Shown here: piece after piece, positions 734-9,115 of the stretch
Position numbering within the stretch: position 1 is the stretch's first letter
How the letters are laid out: every line of letters begins with the position of its first letter
NCBI GenBank assembly: GCA_017883135.1
Contig: JADGOE010000003.1
Location: 1 to 64,000 of the forward strand
From: Acidimicrobiales bacterium
Lineage (GTDB): Bacteria > Actinomycetota > Acidimicrobiia > Acidimicrobiales > RAAP-2
Direction: 5' to 3'
DNA: 64,000 nucleotides
Made by a program: the position numbers and the translations under genes
The notes under the pieces: model-generated
What the model saw: only the letters and a program-made list of their open reading frames with translations
Told to the model about the DNA's origin: nothing
The model's database searches: none

Positions 734-1123
734 TTAGCGCCGGCGCCAAGAACTGGCGCTGCCCACGTCGACCACGACATCGCCATCTTGGTCACCCAGC
801 GCTCCTACGACTACCGGCCAGGCCTTCTCGTTGGCGACAGCCTGGTGCATGCCGGTCAAACCGAAGAGGACCGGGAGACCGCCAGGAAGGTGGTCGACGT
901 GGTCCCACACGTCTTCTGGGCGGAGGGACCGCCTTGCGGCGGCGAACAGCGAGGCGAGGCCCCCGGTCGCAGCTTTGCCATAGCGGGGGGCGAGGTCACC
1001 CCCGAATGGATCGGCCTCGACCAACAGCACCTGTCGACCTGTCGGCCAACTGGCCGCCATGGCGAGAGCGGCGGTGGTGACACCTGGCGATCCTTTGATG
1101 GAGGCAAGGGCGATGAGGGTCAC
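734..1123 (-). pseudogene. MinD/TadZ-like ATPase, C-terminally truncated
   Basis: This 129-residue protein begins like a SIMIBI-class ATPase: a variant P-loop region GSPGVTTAALA lies near residues 12-22 and an acidic strand EADPFGGD near 36-43. It stops just after a Walker B-like DVVVDVGSAS. Full family members are at least 250 residues, so more than half, including the rest of the nucleotide-binding fold, is missing. The start codon overlaps the end of the upstream SAF gene by 4 bp, so it was the fourth gene of the operon starting at 3409. It resembles TadZ/CpaE-type localisation ATPases. No continuation was seen in another frame, so this looks like truncation, not a simple frameshift. Confidence 0.65.
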
Positions 1124-1830
1124 TTGCCCCCCTCGCCGACCAGCGACAGGCCGATCTGGTCGGCTGCCGCGTAGGAGGTCACCGTCGCTGCATCCGACCC
1201 CGGTATCTCCAGTGAGACGGAGGCCACATACTGGGACTGGTTGCCCGGTGCGGGGCCGACGGCGAACACGGTGGCCGAGGCCACCAACGTCTCTCCGATC
1301 GTCCCCCCAATGGTCGAGCCTTGGCCTGCCTGGGGGACGGCGACCACATGGACGGTGTCGCCAACCACCAGTGCCACCGACGGCATTTGGTCACCCTTCA
1401 ACAGCATGCCCACCACCTGTTCGCCGGAAGCGAGCTGCGGTGTCGGGGCAATCATCTGTCTGACCATGACCTGGCCGGCGTAGATGGGCGTGTCGAGCTG
1501 CTGGCCAATCACAGCGGCCGAGCCGGTGGCTGACATGGCCGTGATGTGGCCCGAGGCAGGGATAGAGGCAGTACCCAGGTCGCTGGCCGTAAGCACGGTG
1601 CCCGCAGGCAGGCTCTTCGCCGCCACCAGGATCGACACCTTCTTGGCCGAGGACTGGAACACGGCTCCCGCCACCGCCGCACACACCAGCACCAACGCGA
1701 TCCCGAGACCGATCTGCCACGGGCGTCGCTGATAGGTGGTGGACGAGAGGCGAAGACCGCCGGCACGACCGTCGCCTGACGGCGGTGGTGCCGTGAAGGC
1801 GGACCGGGTTGGGGCAGTTGCAATGGCCAT
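1120..1830 (-). CDS. SAF-domain (CpaB/RcpC-like) membrane-anchored protein
   Basis: The product has 236 residues: a basic, Pro-rich cytoplasmic N-terminus, one hydrophobic membrane segment at about residues 38-60, then a SAF-type beta-clip domain at about 64-130 (pattern ILVAAKSLPAGTVLTASDL). The remainder resembles the outer part of CpaB/RcpC proteins, which form periplasmic or cell-wall parts of Tad/Flp-type secretion machines. It lies 23 bp after the secreted-protein gene and overlaps the truncated ATPase by 4 bp, so it is part of the same operon. SAF domains also occur in unrelated enzymes, but the membrane anchor and the ATPase neighbour favour a secretion role. Confidence 0.75.
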   Translation of the reverse strand: MAIATAPTRSAFTAPPPSGDGRAGGLRLSSTTYQRRPWQIGLGIALVLVCAAVAGAVFQSSAKKVSILVAAKSLPAGTVLTASDLGTASIPASGHITAMSATGSAAVIGQQLDTPIYAGQVMVRQMIAPTPQLASGEQVVGMLLKGDQMPSVALVVGDTVHVVAVPQAGQGSTIGGTIGETLVASATVFAVGPAPGNQSQYVASVSLEIPGSDAATVTSYAAADQIGLSLVGEGGK

Positions 1831-1853: not shown

Positions 1854-2792
1854 TCAGTTGTTCACGGATTCGATCTGAGCCACCTGCAGGGTGGTCGTCC
1901 CCTGGGTGGTGAGGCTCGGCAAGGCTCCGGCCGAGCCGTTCGGACCCGACCAGGCGACCGTCCAGGTGATGGTGGCGGTGATCGGAAAGGCAGCATCGTT
2001 CGGGTTGCCATCGGATGAGGGTTGGCCGGCCGAGGTGGTCGTGTAGGTGTGCGAGCAGGTCGTCGTTTGGCTGGTGGCCGGAAGGGCCGTGTTGTACGGG
2101 ACGCCGGGTCCGTTGCAAGTGACCGTCGTTCCATCGCCGGTATTCCAGGTCACATAGGACGGTGTGGCACTCGCCACAGCGGTGACGCACCCACCGGCAT
2201 TGCACGCTTGTGCTGAGGTGGTGAGCGGATGCCACATCGAGGACGTGATCCAAAGCCACTCGGTCAAATTCACGTAGCCCTTGGTCGAAGGGCTCAGTGT
2301 GAGAGCAGGCCCCGGGAGCTGGAGCTCGCTGGCCGCCTGGGCACCGGCGACCGCCGGATCCGGTGGTGGGACCGCGGGCAACGCCTGGCCAGCGGCCAGC
2401 CACGTCACACCCGTTGCCTGGCCCGTTGGGGCGCCCACGGCGCACGTGTTTACGTACCAGGCGCCGGGCTGTGTAACCCCCGCCGGCGGAGGGCCGCCGT
2501 CCTGTCCCGGAAACTCCGTCGAATAGGCAACCCAGTTGGGACATGTGGGTATCGAGACTGTGGTGGCCCCGCCACCAGAAGTCGGTGCAGCTCCCCCACC
2601 GGCGCCGGCGCCTGTCCCCGTGGTGCCAGAGATTCCGGTTCCACAATTGAGAGTGGAACCGGAATCACTACAACTGCCACCACTTCCTGTCCCACCGACA
2701 CTCGCAAACGCTGTCCCTGTCGGCACTGTGACGGCAAGGATCGCAATGAGAGTCGCTCCGATCGCAAGTGCACCACCGCGGCGAGTCAGCAT
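1854..2792 (-). CDS. Secreted Ser/Gly/Thr-rich protein of the island operon
   Basis: The start ATG at 2792 overlaps the stop of the upstream lipoprotein gene (ATGCTGA), indicating translational coupling. A GTG 13 codons upstream is possible but less likely. The 312-residue product has an N-terminal hydrophobic signal or anchor (about residues 8-30, ending near AFA). A low-complexity Gly/Ser/Thr region follows, and then a folded part with several cysteines and a pattern like WNTGDGTTVTC that recalls PKD/immunoglobulin-like domains. No family was recognised with certainty. Similar secreted proteins with PKD-like C-termini accompany SAF and ATPase genes in actinobacterial plasmids and ICEs, which would fit an export-related or surface role. 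Confidence 0.7.
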   Translation of the reverse strand: MLTRRGGALAIGATLIAILAVTVPTGTAFASVGGTGSGGSCSDSGSTLNCGTGISGTTGTGAGAGGGAAPTSGGGATTVSIPTCPNWVAYSTEFPGQDGGPPPAGVTQPGAWYVNTCAVGAPTGQATGVTWLAAGQALPAVPPPDPAVAGAQAASELQLPGPALTLSPSTKGYVNLTEWLWITSSMWHPLTTSAQACNAGGCVTAVASATPSYVTWNTGDGTTVTCNGPGVPYNTALPATSQTTTCSHTYTTTSAGQPSSDGNPNDAAFPITATITWTVAWSGPNGSAGALPSLTTQGTTTLQVAQIESVNN

Positions 2793-3409
2793 TTGGAGAC
2801 CGTGGCTGTCTTGTAGGACGCAATCTTCCACGAGCCACCCGTGAGCTGCACGGTCCAGGTCCCGCTGTAACTCCCTGCTCCGCCCCCAAGGCTCGTGGGT
2901 CCAGGCTGACCGGCAGCCGTGGTGGTCCCTGAGTCGTCGATGCAGCCAGTGACCCTTGCTGACGTCGGAGAGAGAACCGAGACTGTTGGGGTGCCGAGTT
3001 TGAAAGACGATGGGCCGTTGAGCTGACCCATCTTCACTCCAACGAGGAACGTCTGTTCAGACTGGAGGGCAGGATCGACGAAGTAATTGGCCAGGTTCGG
3101 CCACAATGTGGCAGCCGTTTGGCCAGCAACAAGATTGGCCCGGTCCTGTTGCCACGGCGCCTGCAGGTAGCCGTAGAGGGTCTGCTGGGCCGACTGCCAT
3201 GCATTGAGCACAGCCGTGCCGGCCGCCGCGTGGACGGCACTCGTGGTCGTCGTTGTCGGGCTGGCCAGAGATGTCGTTGGGGTCGAACGCACCGTCGAGG
3301 TTGGTGACGAAGATCCCGAACCACACGCGGCCAGCCCCATACCCGCCATTCCCAACGCACACCCAAAGGTCCAGTTCCGAACTCTGCCCTTCTGCCCTTG
3401 GCTACCCAT
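2786..3409 (-). CDS. Predicted lipoprotein, first gene of the island operon
   Basis: The 207-residue product carries a lipoprotein signal peptide: a basic n-region (QKGRVRNW), a hydrophobic core, and the lipobox GLAAC at about residues 25-29. A Ser/Thr-rich linker follows, then a globular domain of about 130 residues ending in strand-rich sequence (YSGTWTVQLTGGSWKIASY). That pattern resembles NTF2/SnoaL-like lipoproteins of conjugative or secretion loci, but the assignment is tentative. It is coupled to the next gene by a 7-base start/stop overlap. The GGGTGACGTT repeats lie just upstream of its start region. Confidence 0.7.
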   Translation of the reverse strand: MGSQGQKGRVRNWTFGCALGMAGMGLAACGSGSSSPTSTVRSTPTTSLASPTTTTTSAVHAAAGTAVLNAWQSAQQTLYGYLQAPWQQDRANLVAGQTAATLWPNLANYFVDPALQSEQTFLVGVKMGQLNGPSSFKLGTPTVSVLSPTSARVTGCIDDSGTTTAAGQPGPTSLGGGAGSYSGTWTVQLTGGSWKIASYKTATVSKC

Positions 3410-3511
3410 CCGGTTACCCCTCCTCTCGTCCTAGGACGCAGTCCCCGCCGCCGCTGATGCTCGGCGGGCGACGCCGTCGGGACTGCACATCCGAGAACAG
3501 CATGAGTGGCC

Positions 3512-3756
3512 AACGTCACCCTGAACGTCACCCTCGGCCCTCGAACTGGGAGTTTTTCGGGACACACGACGGTCCGGTTCAATCGGTGGCATCGAGCAAT
3601 CCCGGACGTCTTCCGGACGATCGTCACCGGCAGGGCCAACGTCACCCTGAACGTCACCTTCCCTGGTCACAGGCCTGAACCGGACCTGCACACGGCCACT
3701 ATTCCGGGGTCTGTGGGAGGCACTCGACGCCACCGGATCCCCCTGAGGGTGACGTT
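3512..3756. repeat. Left GGGTGACGTT repeat group (5 copies)
   Basis: AACGTCACCC (reverse complement of GGGTGACGTT) occurs at 3512-3521 and 3524-3533, and again at 3638-3647 and 3650-3659 (last copy one mismatch). Within each pair the period is 12 bp, and the two pairs share a longer common unit. A further copy in the opposite orientation is at 3747-3756. The group fills the 400-bp gap between the lipoprotein promoter region and the RHH gene; no gene was seen in that gap. This is iteron- or centromere-like organisation. Confidence 0.8.
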
Positions 3757-3810
3757 GCTGAGTATGGAGAGCCGGCGGCGGCTCGCTACCGCCAATCGGA
3801 TCTCCGGGAT

Positions 3811-4062
3811 TCAGTGGCCCTTGTCCAGCGCCCGCCGAAGCGCCCAGCTGACGAACTGAGAGACGCTCCATCCTCGGCGCTCGGCCTCTGATCGAACTTC
3901 TTCTCGGAGCACTCGATCGAGCCAGTAGGTGGCACGGACGTGCCGGGCCTCCCACGACTGACCGTCGGACTCCGAGTCCTTGGCACCTTTCGGGCTCGAG
4001 GTGCCACGCGCATGTTGAACCACCAACGTTCCCCTTTGTCCGACCCGACCTGCTTTCGCCAA
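3811..4062 (-). CDS. Ribbon-helix-helix DNA-binding protein
   Basis: An 83-residue protein. Its C-terminal half (about residues 40-80) fits the ribbon-helix-helix fold: a short strand HVRATYWLD, helix 1 REEVRSEAERRG, a turn, and helix 2 SVSQFVSWALRRALD. The N-terminal 35 residues are basic and probably flexible, as in ParG/CopG-type partition or copy-control proteins. The gene lies between two groups of GGGTGACGTT repeats, and a separate palindromic cluster sits upstream of its start. It probably represses its own promoter and binds the flanking repeats. Whether the role is partition, copy control or transcription control cannot be told from sequence. Confidence 0.8.
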   Translation of the reverse strand: MAKAGRVGQRGTLVVQHARGTSSPKGAKDSESDGQSWEARHVRATYWLDRVLREEVRSEAERRGWSVSQFVSWALRRALDKGH

Positions 4063-4081
4063 CTCCCGCCCTCGTCAGCAA

Positions 4082-4142
4082 CATACGGGTCATCGTATTC
4101 GAAACACGTACCGTATGCAACATACCGTACACCGCATACCGT
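4082..4142. promoter_or_regulatory. CATACCGT palindrome cluster upstream of RHH gene
   Basis: Immediately upstream of the RHH start lies GTACCGTATG-CAA-CATACCGTAC (4108-4130), a near-perfect inverted repeat. CATACCGT recurs 14 bp later (4135-4142), and a weaker CATACGGGT lies at 4082-4090. The position fits an autoregulatory operator. The motif differs from the GGGTGACGTT repeats, so two binding-site classes may be present. Confidence 0.6.
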
Positions 4143-4226
4143 CAGTGGTCAAGCTCTCACCGAGCGTGGAGAGGCGAAAGGGCGGGCTCGGCCAAGTCCC
4201 GTGAGGCGTTGCTGGTGTTCCGGTCA

Positions 4227-4314
4227 GGGTGACGTACCTGCGAACCGAGGGTGACGTTCAACCCCTTCGGTAGCTCCGTGAGAGCCCTCTGCGGGTGACG
4301 TTGCGGGTGACGTC
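4227..4314 (+). repeat. Right GGGTGACGTT repeat group (4 copies)
   Basis: Copies on the plus strand are at 4227-4236 (ending TA), 4249-4258, 4293-4302 and 4305-4314 (ending TC). The last two have the same 12-bp period as the left group. Orientation is opposite to the left pairs, so the RHH gene is bracketed by divergent arrays. The group lies 60-150 bp upstream of the two-gene unit at 4375-5018 and may control it. Confidence 0.8.
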
Positions 4315-4374
4315 CGTCTGGACGATGGGTTGTGACAGGTGCACCAGGCCCCTGTCACGAACAAGGGAGGCCTG

Positions 4375-4785
4375 ATGTCCCCATCATCGTCAGCCGTAGA
4401 GCGAGGTCCCGGCCGAGTGTCGAGTGGAGGGCTGCCCCTGGGAGCCCTGACAGCGGCGGGGGGATCCGGAGATCACCGACTCCGATTCGTCGAAGGACCC
4501 GACCACCCGCCAGGAGACGAGACGCCGCTGATGGGCAACCTACGGCTCGTGCTCGTTACCGCGAGCGGCTTCGAAGTGCCACTGGTCGCTTCACCGACCC
4601 AGGTGGCGCGGCTACTGAGGAGCTCCGGCGAAACAGACGCCGCCGATCAGCGCGGCGATGGAAGCCGGGAGGCCCCGAGGTACCGGAAGGTTCGCCGTCC
4701 TCGTCCCGTACCGGTGGATCGTCTGCTGAGCCGAGCTCGGCTCGTCAGCCGGTTCGAGACGCCCGTCGGGGGTGGTGCGGCATGA
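4375..4785 (+). CDS. Unknown 136-residue protein, first of a coupled pair
   Basis: The ATG at 4375 has a good ribosome-binding site (GGGAGG, 6 nt upstream); an ATG 12 codons earlier lacks one. The product has a disordered Gly/Pro/Ser-rich N-terminus of about 50 residues. A short folded core follows (about 55-85, pattern NLRLVLVTASGFEVPLVAS), then a basic tail. No family was recognised. Its TGA overlaps the ATG of the next ORF (ATGA), a coupling signal that supports both as real genes. They lie downstream of the right repeat group, so they may be controlled by the RHH protein. Confidence 0.55.
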   Translation: MSPSSSAVERGPGRVSSGGLPLGALTAAGGSGDHRLRFVEGPDHPPGDETPLMGNLRLVLVTASGFEVPLVASPTQVARLLRSSGETDAADQRGDGSREAPRYRKVRRPRPVPVDRLLSRARLVSRFETPVGGGAA

Positions 4786-5018
4786 GCAGAACAGCGTCTT
4801 CAAGACAGCGTCGAAATGGGGACGGCCGCTTGGCGGGGACGACGCGTGATGGAGCTCGCTCCCGTTCTCGGGATGAGCGCAACTGTGCCCGGTGGTTTGC
4901 CCGCTTCGACGAGCACAGCGAAGAGTCCGCCGGTCGTCCAAGCCGCAGCGAGGTCCGGCGGCTGCGGAAGGAGCTCGAGGCCCTACGTCGATTGGTGACA
5001 GGTGAACAGATCCCGTAG
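4782..5018 (+). CDS. Unknown basic 78-residue protein, second of the pair
   Basis: The start overlaps the upstream stop by 4 bp (ATGA). The first half is very Arg/Ser-rich and probably disordered. The second half (about residues 45-75, SEVRRLRKELEALRRLV) forms an amphipathic helix with a heptad-like pattern, suggesting a short coiled coil or dimerisation helix. No known domain was recognised. The same frame is open upstream to 4332, but that part overlaps the preceding gene out of frame and has no supported start. Confidence 0.5.
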   Translation: MSRTASSRQRRNGDGRLAGTTRDGARSRSRDERNCARWFARFDEHSEESAGRPSRSEVRRLRKELEALRRLVTGEQIP

Positions 5019-5114: not shown

Positions 5115-5327
5115 GTGGCCATCTCATTCAGCCATCACGACCAGGCGGCCACGGCCGATCTGATCTCCATCCCTGAGGCTGCCCGCCGCGTCGGATTGCA
5201 CGCCGACACTCTCTACCGCCTCTGTCGAACGGGCCAATTCCCGCCCGCACTCCAGATCGGGGCTAGATGGAGAGTGTCGGTGCCGCGCCTGGAGAAGTAC
5301 CTCCACGGTGAAGATGACACACCATAA
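5115..5327 (+). CDS. Excisionase-like helix-turn-helix protein
   Basis: A 70-residue protein whose core (about residues 16-62) matches the MerR/Xis-type winged HTH family: ISIPEAARRVGLHADTLYRLCRTGQFP, then a strand with ARWRVSVPRLEKYL. These small proteins act as recombination directionality factors or as transcription regulators on integrative elements. The same block carries a tyrosine integrase (7733-8953), which supports an excisionase role, though they are not adjacent. The start ATG has no strong ribosome-binding site; initiation may be weak or a nearby GTG may be used. Confidence 0.8.
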   Translation: MAISFSHHDQAATADLISIPEAARRVGLHADTLYRLCRTGQFPPALQIGARWRVSVPRLEKYLHGEDDTP

Positions 5328-5516: not shown

Positions 5517-5948
5517 CTACACGTCAAGGATCTTTGCGATCAACTTGAACAAGTCAACGTCACTGGCCGAGGTCGGAGGTCCTGTCAAGATCCTCTGGAT
5601 TGCCGCGTCGAGAAGCTGGGCCTGCCGTCCCGACAATATGGGAGAGCCCGTCAGTCGAGAGACCATTCTCTCAAACGGTTCATCTTCAATTCGAGTCTCG
5701 TGTTCCCGATCGCTTCTCAGAGAATCTCGATCGGTCCCCGGGGCCTCCTGGCAGTAGACCCCGATCGCTTCCAATGTCGCTCTCGAATCCGGATAGGTAT
5801 TTCCGCGCTCCCAGTGTGAGACTGCGCTCTGTGATGCCGTCTCCGCCCCAAGTTTCACCAGAGCGTCGGCGCACGTCGACTGAGTGTGGCCGTAGCGATC
5901 TCGAGCCGTGTGGAGCGTTTGTCCCATGGCGACCTGCGCCGACGTCAT
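5517..5948 (-). CDS. XRE-family helix-turn-helix repressor
   Basis: A 143-residue protein from the ATG at 5948. An ATG at 5993 would add 15 residues but would put the palindromes inside the gene. The HTH lies at about residues 10-65 (GQTLHTARDRYGHTQSTCADALV ... SQSAVSHWERGNTYPD), the cro/C1 pattern with the typical SHWERG recognition region. The C-terminal 75 residues are probably a dimerisation region. It is divergent from the orphan gene at 6239 and the HAD gene. Palindromes just upstream look like operators, so it is probably the repressor of the island's rightward transcript and of itself. Confidence 0.85.
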   Translation of the reverse strand: MTSAQVAMGQTLHTARDRYGHTQSTCADALVKLGAETASQSAVSHWERGNTYPDSRATLEAIGVYCQEAPGTDRDSLRSDREHETRIEDEPFERMVSRLTGSPILSGRQAQLLDAAIQRILTGPPTSASDVDLFKLIAKILDV

Positions 5949-5970
5949 GCCCGAAGCATAGCTTTGACCT

Positions 5971-6077
5971 GCGTATACGCGTCCATCGCTCAACTAATGC
6001 GCGTATGCGCGTAACGTATCCCGCATGGCCGAGCCCGTCGCCTCCAACCGTCCTCCGGCTGACGTCGTCATGACGTC
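5971..6077. promoter_or_regulatory. Operator-like palindromes in the XRE divergent region
   Basis: GCGTATACGC (5971-5980, perfect palindrome) and GCGC-GTAT-GCGC (5999-6010) are two related sites 28 bp apart just upstream of the XRE start. Further on, GACGTC occurs twice (6061-6066 and 6072-6077) around GTCAT. The first pair fits cro/C1-type operators; the role of the second is unknown. Confidence 0.6.
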
Positions 6078-6649: not shown

Positions 6650-7594
6650 ATGGCCGTACCAATTTACACCCAGGCGACAATCGCCATCATCTGGGATTTT
6701 GACCGCACAATAATTCCCGGATACTCTCAAACGCCACTCTTCGCCGCCTATGGCATCGATAGTAAGACATTCTGGGATGAGACGAATGCGCTTGTCCACC
6801 ATTATCAGAAGCGCAACTTACGTGTAGCCAAGGATACGGCCTACCTCAATCACATCCTCACCTACGTTGAGCAAGGCAAATTCGCTGGCTTAACGAACTC
6901 CAAGCTTCGAGAGCTTGGCAGCGAGATCCCCGTTTGCCCGGGGATGCCTGAATTTATGAGTTCAATCCAACAACACGTTGCGAAAAACCCGAGGTACGAG
7001 TCCAACGGGGTCACATTGGAGCACTACATCATTTCGACTGGAATCCGCCCTCTTATCGAAGGCAGTGCCATCGGTACGCACGTTGAAGGGATCTGGGCCA
7101 ATGAGTTCATCGACCAGCCCCCGGCCCCCGGATATCTCGCGGATGGTCATGAGTTCGGCGAAGAGTCCGAAATTCGGCAGGTCGGATATACCATTGACAA
7201 CACTTCGAAGACGCGCGCTATCTTCGAGATAAACAAGGGGCCGGGAGTCGATGTTAATTCTCGAGTCGATGAGGGGGAGAGGCGAGTTCCGATTCGGAAC
7301 ATGATCTATATCGCCGATGGCCCGAGTGATGTCCCAGTATTCTCAATCGTTCAGAAATTCGGCGGAAGATCGCTCGGCGTTTACCAGACTGGCGAGCATG
7401 AAAACTTTGCGCAAGTCAAGCAGCTGGAGGACGAATCTCGAGTCAACAGTATCGCTGAAGCCAATTACTTGCCAGATAGCCAGGCCAGCTTGTGGATTCG
7501 GACGACGGTTGACGAAATCGCTACTGCTATCTGCAATCGTCGGGATGCCTGGTTTGAATTCGTTCCTCGACCCCCGGGCCACGTCACCGACTGA
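6650..7594 (+). CDS. HAD-superfamily phosphatase-like cargo protein
   Basis: A 314-residue protein with the HAD motifs in order: motif I IIWDFDRTIIP (about residues 13-23, DxDxT), motif II IISTGI (Thr or Ser, about 127-132), and motif IV YIADGPSDVPVF (about 225-236, acidic pair). This indicates an aspartate-nucleophile hydrolase acting on a phosphorylated small molecule; the substrate is unknown. The cap between motifs I and II is large (about 100 residues) and helical. Codon third positions are much less GC-rich than in neighbouring chromosomal genes, a sign of transfer. It may be co-transcribed with the orphan ORF at 6239 and is convergent with the integrase. Confidence 0.85.
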   Translation: MAVPIYTQATIAIIWDFDRTIIPGYSQTPLFAAYGIDSKTFWDETNALVHHYQKRNLRVAKDTAYLNHILTYVEQGKFAGLTNSKLRELGSEIPVCPGMPEFMSSIQQHVAKNPRYESNGVTLEHYIISTGIRPLIEGSAIGTHVEGIWANEFIDQPPAPGYLADGHEFGEESEIRQVGYTIDNTSKTRAIFEINKGPGVDVNSRVDEGERRVPIRNMIYIADGPSDVPVFSIVQKFGGRSLGVYQTGEHENFAQVKQLEDESRVNSIAEANYLPDSQASLWIRTTVDEIATAICNRRDAWFEFVPRPPGHVTD

Positions 7595-9038: not shown

Positions 9039-9115
9039 TGGTGGGGCTAGCAAGAATCGAACTTGCGACCTCAGCATTATCAGTGCTGCGCTCTAACCAA
9101 CTGAGCTATAGCCCC
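9039..9115 (-). tRNA. tRNA-Ile (GAT anticodon), likely integration target
   Basis: On the minus strand: acceptor GGGGCTA/TAGCCCC, D-arm AGCTCAGTTGGTTAGAGC, anticodon loop CTGATAA with GAT, T-arm GCAAGTTCGATTCTTGC, and CCA encoded at the 3' end (77 nt). Its 3' end faces the integrase gene. The gene is intact on the chromosomal side, as expected when an element carries a copy of the tRNA 3' part. Confidence 0.98.

Follow-up and report, generated by a model that had tools for sequence, protein, structure and literature searches.

The closest described counterpart of the locus considered here is the AcaCD regulon of IncA/C plasmids, in which SGI1/MGI islands are triggered by their helper through a shared motif (PMC4207636, PMC4605294). 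The motif lies before the transfer genes of the helper, and islands unrelated to it have the motif before their excisionase (recombination directionality factor) gene; its activator is an FlhDC-like pair. A different type of activator is TprA, a ribbon-helix-helix (RHH)/Arc-like protein of ICE PAPI-1, which activates the conjugative pilus operon and many other ICE genes and binds one ~33-bp region at -254 to -287 (PMC8565334). RdfS of ICEMlSym(R7A) and BldC, by comparison, are HTH_17 proteins of the excisionase type, which form head-to-tail oligomers on DNA and regulate genes for excision (PMC11963761). ParA-RHH partition cassettes of the ParG and omega type offer a further comparison.

The window, a 64-kb stretch of DNA from an Acidimicrobiales genome (2.96 Mb, 126 contigs), starts at the start of its contig and contains an element in which copies of a short repeat, GGGTGACGTT, surround an RHH gene. 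Judged from comparison with related elements, the repeats are probably the control boxes of one excision-and-conjugation regulon of tRNA-integrated ICEs, most likely bound by an element-encoded activator, for which the RHH protein is the best candidate. The features of the window element are as follows.

734 to 1123, minus strand: truncated CpaE-like ATPase
1120 to 1830, minus strand: CpaB-like protein with SAF domain
1854 to 2831, minus strand: secreted protein of the Tad-type operon
2786 to 3409, minus strand: lipoprotein-like gene, first of the Tad-type operon
3499 to 3504, minus strand: -10-like CATGCT (CATGCT or CATCAT in relatives), 7 bp past the terminal repeat of array L; presumed promoter element
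3512 to 3533, minus strand: array L, promoter-proximal repeat pair (12-bp period) of the lipoprotein/Tad operon
3638 to 3659, minus strand: array L, upstream repeat pair, at the same place in L036-L038
3747 to 3756, plus strand: conserved single repeat, between array L and the RHH stop codon
3811 to 4062, minus strand: RHH (CopG-like) gene
4092 to 4097, minus strand: -10 TACGAT of the RHH promoter
4105 to 4140, minus strand: RHH-promoter operator GGTATGCGGTGTACGGTATGTTGCATACGGTACGTG, palindromic and 7-bp-stepped, distinct from GGGTGACGTT
4227 to 4258, plus strand: array R, two upstream repeats, 22 bp apart
4293 to 4314, plus strand: array R, promoter-proximal repeat pair (12-bp period)
4321 to 4326, plus strand: -10-like GACGAT inside a conserved (T/C)GGAC(G/C)ATG box, 6 bp past the terminal repeat; presumed promoter element
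4332 to 4358, plus strand: leader inverted repeat or hairpin GTGACAGG...CCTGTCAC, with compensatory changes in relatives
4375 to 4785, plus strand: sORF1, first gene of the R operon, no known family
4782 to 5018, plus strand: sORF2, overlapping sORF1, no known family
5115 to 5327, plus strand: HTH_17 excisionase (Xis)-like protein, 70 aa
7733 to 8953, minus strand: tyrosine integrase of the element
9039 to 9115, minus strand: tRNA-Ile, presumed integration site

The preliminary description reported nine GGGTGACGTT copies with at most one mismatch around the RHH gene, and all nine are present: 3512(-), 3524(-), 3638(-), 3650(-), 3747(+), 4227(+), 4249(+), 4293(+) and 4305(+). Their pairing at a 12-bp period applies to six copies only (3512/3524, 3638/3650 and 4293/4305), the remaining three being single, at steps of ~22 bp and ~44 bp, and the opposite orientation on either side of the gene holds in the main, the copy at 3747 being a plus-strand repeat on the left side. 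The window has 18 matches at this threshold versus 5.8 +/- 2.3 in shuffles (shuffle maximum 13). The nine that lie outside the cluster are scattered across the remaining window at near-chance frequency, and thus the entire excess is the cluster, with nine matches in 803 bp versus ~0.07 expected (arithmetic from the shuffles), or ~120 times the density. The cluster is no product of chance.

The genome-wide statistics derive from pattern searches. The host genome holds 21 exact copies of GGGTGACGTT, six of them in the window cluster, and the 12-bp pair, with up to one mismatch allowed, is confined to that cluster and contig C8, while the reversed-pattern control of the pair gave zero matches in 2.96 Mb. 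The scan that had been proposed, for which similar density elsewhere was the adverse outcome, thus finds a motif that is not spread over the genome. A third, degenerate pair is located on contig C6, and all three places are tRNA-integrated elements.

The window copy is a truncated ICE remnant, containing only int, xis and part of the Tad operon. This follows from the cut CpaE gene, which matches the intact L036 gene over 109 of 309 residues and then ends, from the lack of anything of the operon beyond it (CpaF, TadB, TadC and Flp are missing from the window copy), and from the finding that an ICE-type relaxase is absent from the host genome, which has only a relaxase of 38% identity. The integrase abuts tRNA-Ile, and relatives with similar arrays are located at tRNA-Ile and other tRNA genes. 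No att duplication was found between the two tRNA genes, and therefore the distal end of the element is uncertain; a same-genus genome, compared for an empty integration site, gave no clear one. An XRE-type regulator (5517-5993), for which no relative was found in the array elements compared, and a HAD-like phosphatase (6650-7594) within the element are probably cargo or local control. A 17-bp inverted repeat (94%) at the contig start (2-18 and 132-148), beside tRNA-Ala, is possibly a small mobile element or an assembly-end feature.

Four relatives, with RHH proteins 87-92% identical to that of the window, occur in Acidimicrobiales metagenome-assembled genomes, and all four keep the order array R, RHH, single repeat, array L. 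In the three whose contig reaches an integrase, the integrases are of different types, and two of these have a tRNA-Ser or tRNA-Arg gene nearby. More distant elements in G090 (RHH 42%) and G264 (RHH 47%) also keep array R-RHH-array L, so that the layout sought in related elements is found in seven of seven Tad-type elements. The element on contig C239 of G300, ~47 kb long, is a complete ICE equipped with a MobF relaxase and a pilus of Tad-like type: its 47 kb include int and xis, the Tad operon, the relaxase gene, and genes for VirB4/TraG-like and pilin-like proteins. It begins with integrase, HTH_17 Xis, sORF2, sORF1, array R, RHH and array L, and continues with lipoprotein, secreted protein, CpaB, CpaE, CpaF/TadA, TadB, TadC, Flp-like pilin, LysM protein and cargo. 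Beyond the cargo lie genes for an ArdC-like protein, SSB, ParB, the MobF relaxase, a TraG/VirB4-like ATPase and a small pilin-like gene, which is preceded by another array; the names ArdC, SSB, LysM, Flp and pilin are given by sequence appearance. The regulators seen in this ICE are RHH, Xis and a ParB only. The ParB has no counterpart found in the G264 element, and no FlhDC-like protein was noticed on reading the gene list. A search for ICEs of Acidimicrobiia and for Tad-type actinobacterial ICEs, covering titles and abstracts of one literature collection, gave nothing relevant.

When terminal repeat pairs were assembled and the genes downstream read, a composite promoter emerged, with 36 sites in eight genomes and five target classes. 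Each site has two repeats at 12-bp period, and a -10-like hexamer follows after 6 bp, or after 7 bp in the Tad class; the consensus is GGGTGACGTT-ca-GGGTGACGTc-(N4)-cGGAc(g)ATg. Outside the tadL class, nearly all sites have a GGA-N2-AT box at one fixed offset; tadL sites have CATGCT or CATCAT in its place, one base further. Additional upstream repeats are frequent, at steps of ~20, ~44-45 and ~12 bp, and array sites are up to ~44 kb apart within one element. The targets are sORF1-sORF2-xis, the Tad operon, xis of small islands, the MobF relaxase (five genomes), and the pilin-like first gene of the T4SS operon. All ICE-type relaxase starts that were read (G090, G264, G298, G299 and G300) have the box, two of them with weaker repeats. 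The reading as a control box for excision and conjugation joins all five functionally linked classes, and it is favoured for this reason; the linked targets include the TrwC/MobF relaxase (Pfam E=1e-76), VirB4/TraG-like ATPase, TadA-type ATPase, CpaB and excisionase. The earlier suggestion of a single regulator for the two divergent operons gains support, and extends to the relaxase, the T4SS and the satellite xis genes, which have the same box. A leader hairpin (4332-4358) lies between promoter R and the first start codon, and shows compensatory changes in 4 of 7 predicted pairs (alignment, 12 elements); a role in translating the xis operon is conceivable, or else the palindrome could be bound by a protein.

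We infer from this architecture that a tandem of two GGGTGACG(TT) sites, with a weak -10 box 6-7 bp past its end, would drive transcription, usually assisted by upstream sites at ~20, 44 and 12-bp steps. It would act on operon R with xis, on the Tad-like pilus operon L, on the MobF relaxase gene and on the T4SS operon, and binding of an element-encoded activator would most likely turn on excision and transfer together. The core promoters have no good -35 and poor -10 boxes, and an activator is favoured on these grounds; if the GAC(G/C)AT box is the -10, the proximal pair would span roughly -40 to -19. TprA offers a likeness by description, as an ICE-encoded RHH protein that activates a pilus operon, the RHH protein here being a candidate for that role, but TprA binds one upstream region, whereas several short tandem repeats reach the -10 box here.

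The RHH open reading frame may begin at codon 13 or 14 (~4026), beside a Shine-Dalgarno-like AAAGGGG stretch. Its Pfam match to RHH_5 (E=0.006) falls under the cut-off, and a nine-member profile recovers solved RHH proteins (VapB26, E=5e-4; a CopG-family chain, E=8e-4), matches that place the window protein in the RHH (CopG/Arc) superfamily. The monomer structure model, with a long helix across the expected strand and 31 disordered residues, was not used. A palindromic operator distinct from the repeats lies at the promoter of the gene and overlaps it; the sequence is GGTATGCGGTGTACGGTATGTTGCATACGGTAC for the window type but GCACACGGTGTGCAGCACACCGTGTGC for the G264 type, the subfamilies differing in GTATGC vs GTGTGC. 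This operator sequence occurs once in the window, and its 7-bp steps are reminiscent of the omega heptads; the periodicity (P ~0.1 in most members, 0.017 in L035) is suggestive only. Distant RHH relatives in other genomes, with 33-49% identity, are encoded directly behind ParA-like genes, as in the ParG and omega cassettes. Six of these (L077-L082, in G091, G079, G187, G323, G368 and G097), some with 7-bp or 22-bp repeats nearby, are probably plasmid partition cassettes of Acidimicrobiales.

Of 397 genomes from the order, four (G000, G008, G090 and G264) have genuine pairs; a close RHH protein is present in three of these four and in none of the others. Hypergeometric arithmetic puts this co-occurrence at ~4e-7, but the figure is confounded by physical linkage. 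In G008, a draft that is 92% complete, arrays are present and a close RHH was not found. Single matches in G351, G115, G095, G010 and G233 lack the downstream box and look like chance occurrences in coding sequence. A phage origin was also considered and set aside: two viral contigs match the pair, but both in unrelated DNA.

The RHH protein seems the strongest candidate regulator because it lies between the arrays in 7/7 elements, because few other regulators are seen in the complete ICE, and because it co-occurs with the arrays in the 397 genomes; that it binds the GGGTGACGTT repeats is plausible. Its case is weakened by the different motif at its own promoter and by the G008 arrays, and the protein may bind both motifs or only its own operator. 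In the latter event the regulon would be real, but the RHH protein would only autoregulate via the GTATGC/GTGTGC palindromes, and GGGTGACGTT would be bound by an sORF1/2 product, an HTH_17 Xis-type protein or an unseen regulator. We regard this alternative as a rather doubtful but serious one. It is favoured by the RHH operator, which is conserved in architecture and changed in sequence between RHH subfamilies while GGGTGACGTT is unchanged, by the related CGGTATGCGG near the G187 relative that adjoins a ParA-like gene, and by the asymmetry of the core GGGTGACG. HTH_17 proteins, BldC among them, bind direct repeats in head-to-tail fashion, and RdfS, an excisionase-type HTH_17 protein like those behind the arrays, is an activator of other excisionase promoters (PMC11963761). 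A consensus motif is lacking for RdfS, however, whereas here a strict motif accompanies variable Xis proteins: those behind the boxes diverge strongly, recognition helix included, which makes a shared 10-bp site unlikely. Moreover, sORF1/2 were not detected in L039/L040-type elements, and a regulator of its own gene alone would have little purpose. Many RHH proteins repress, and the proximal pair overlaps the presumed -35/spacer, a classic repressor position, so that the RHH protein might instead silence excision and transfer from the repeats, as CopG, ParG or MetJ do. This seems unlikely, given core promoters of the kind expected where an activator is needed, and islands without RHH on the contig (C8, C6, C62 and C219), which would be derepressed alone.

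The preliminary description also considered a plasmid-type partition or replication region, with the repeats as a centromere or iterons of the excised element. The idea has an evolutionary basis in the ParA-linked RHH relatives; RHH partition proteins bind repeat arrays, and the ICE carries a ParB. We nevertheless reject it as highly improbable. No ParA gene lies directly upstream of the window RHH, whose neighbours are the arrays, the lipoprotein operon and sORF1, and no Rep initiator was found among the Pfam-scanned neighbours; unlike the sites of partition cassettes, GGGTGACGTT has a 12-bp period and recurs at promoters of many unrelated operons, at a fixed distance from a -10-like box. A role in DNA processing in cis, as oriT or as a site for the excisionase at att, has equally little to recommend it over a promoter role. 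The repeats do lie near int/xis and near the leader inverted repeat, but each element has several sites, upstream of each transfer operon, and in the window and C8 they are >1.5 kb from the tRNA.

The activator reading bears on a set of small islands, on C8 and C6 of the host genome and on contigs of G090, G298, G300, G008 and G264, in which the box or a degenerate form precedes an xis-like gene with a tyrosine integrase next to it, in many cases at a tRNA gene (Ser, Val, Ala or Glu). On C6 the same composite promoter stands before an xis-integrase-tRNA-Ser module, a site recognised only after the promoter had been defined, and thus a modest out-of-sample test. RHH, relaxase and pilus genes were not detected on the same stretch as the island boxes; the contigs are short and this absence is provisional, as transfer genes could be missing through assembly. 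The C8 island (L011, 1-9300) has a TerC-like membrane protein, two-component regulators and an M48-like peptidase between two array groups, the cargo being named by sequence appearance only. Activation also accounts better for islands that have no regulator gene, since they would be stable alone and mobile with a helper. We infer that a resident ICE would act in trans to turn on islands with only int, xis and the box, as AcaCD does with SGI1. The likeness lies in one motif before both transfer genes and island xis; the motif and the Acidimicrobiales host are unrelated to those of AcaCD, and an RHH candidate replaces the FlhDC-like pair.

It is quite possible, and we suggest it tentatively, that these elements form an undescribed actinobacterial helper-satellite network. 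Through boxes of asymmetric GGGTGACGTT repeats in tandem, which extend to the -10 element, the RHH protein of the ICE would activate the operons for excision, Tad pilus, relaxase and T4SS in the ICE itself; acting in trans, it would also activate xis of several unrelated tRNA islands in the same cell. The signature of a GGGTGACGTT pair 12 bp apart plus GGAC(G/C)ATG can be used in uncultured Acidimicrobiales genomes to search for ICEs, their operons and probable satellite islands. The finding suggests that islands eavesdropping on the transfer regulator of a helper, known from gammaproteobacteria, may also exist in actinobacteria, with another class of regulator.
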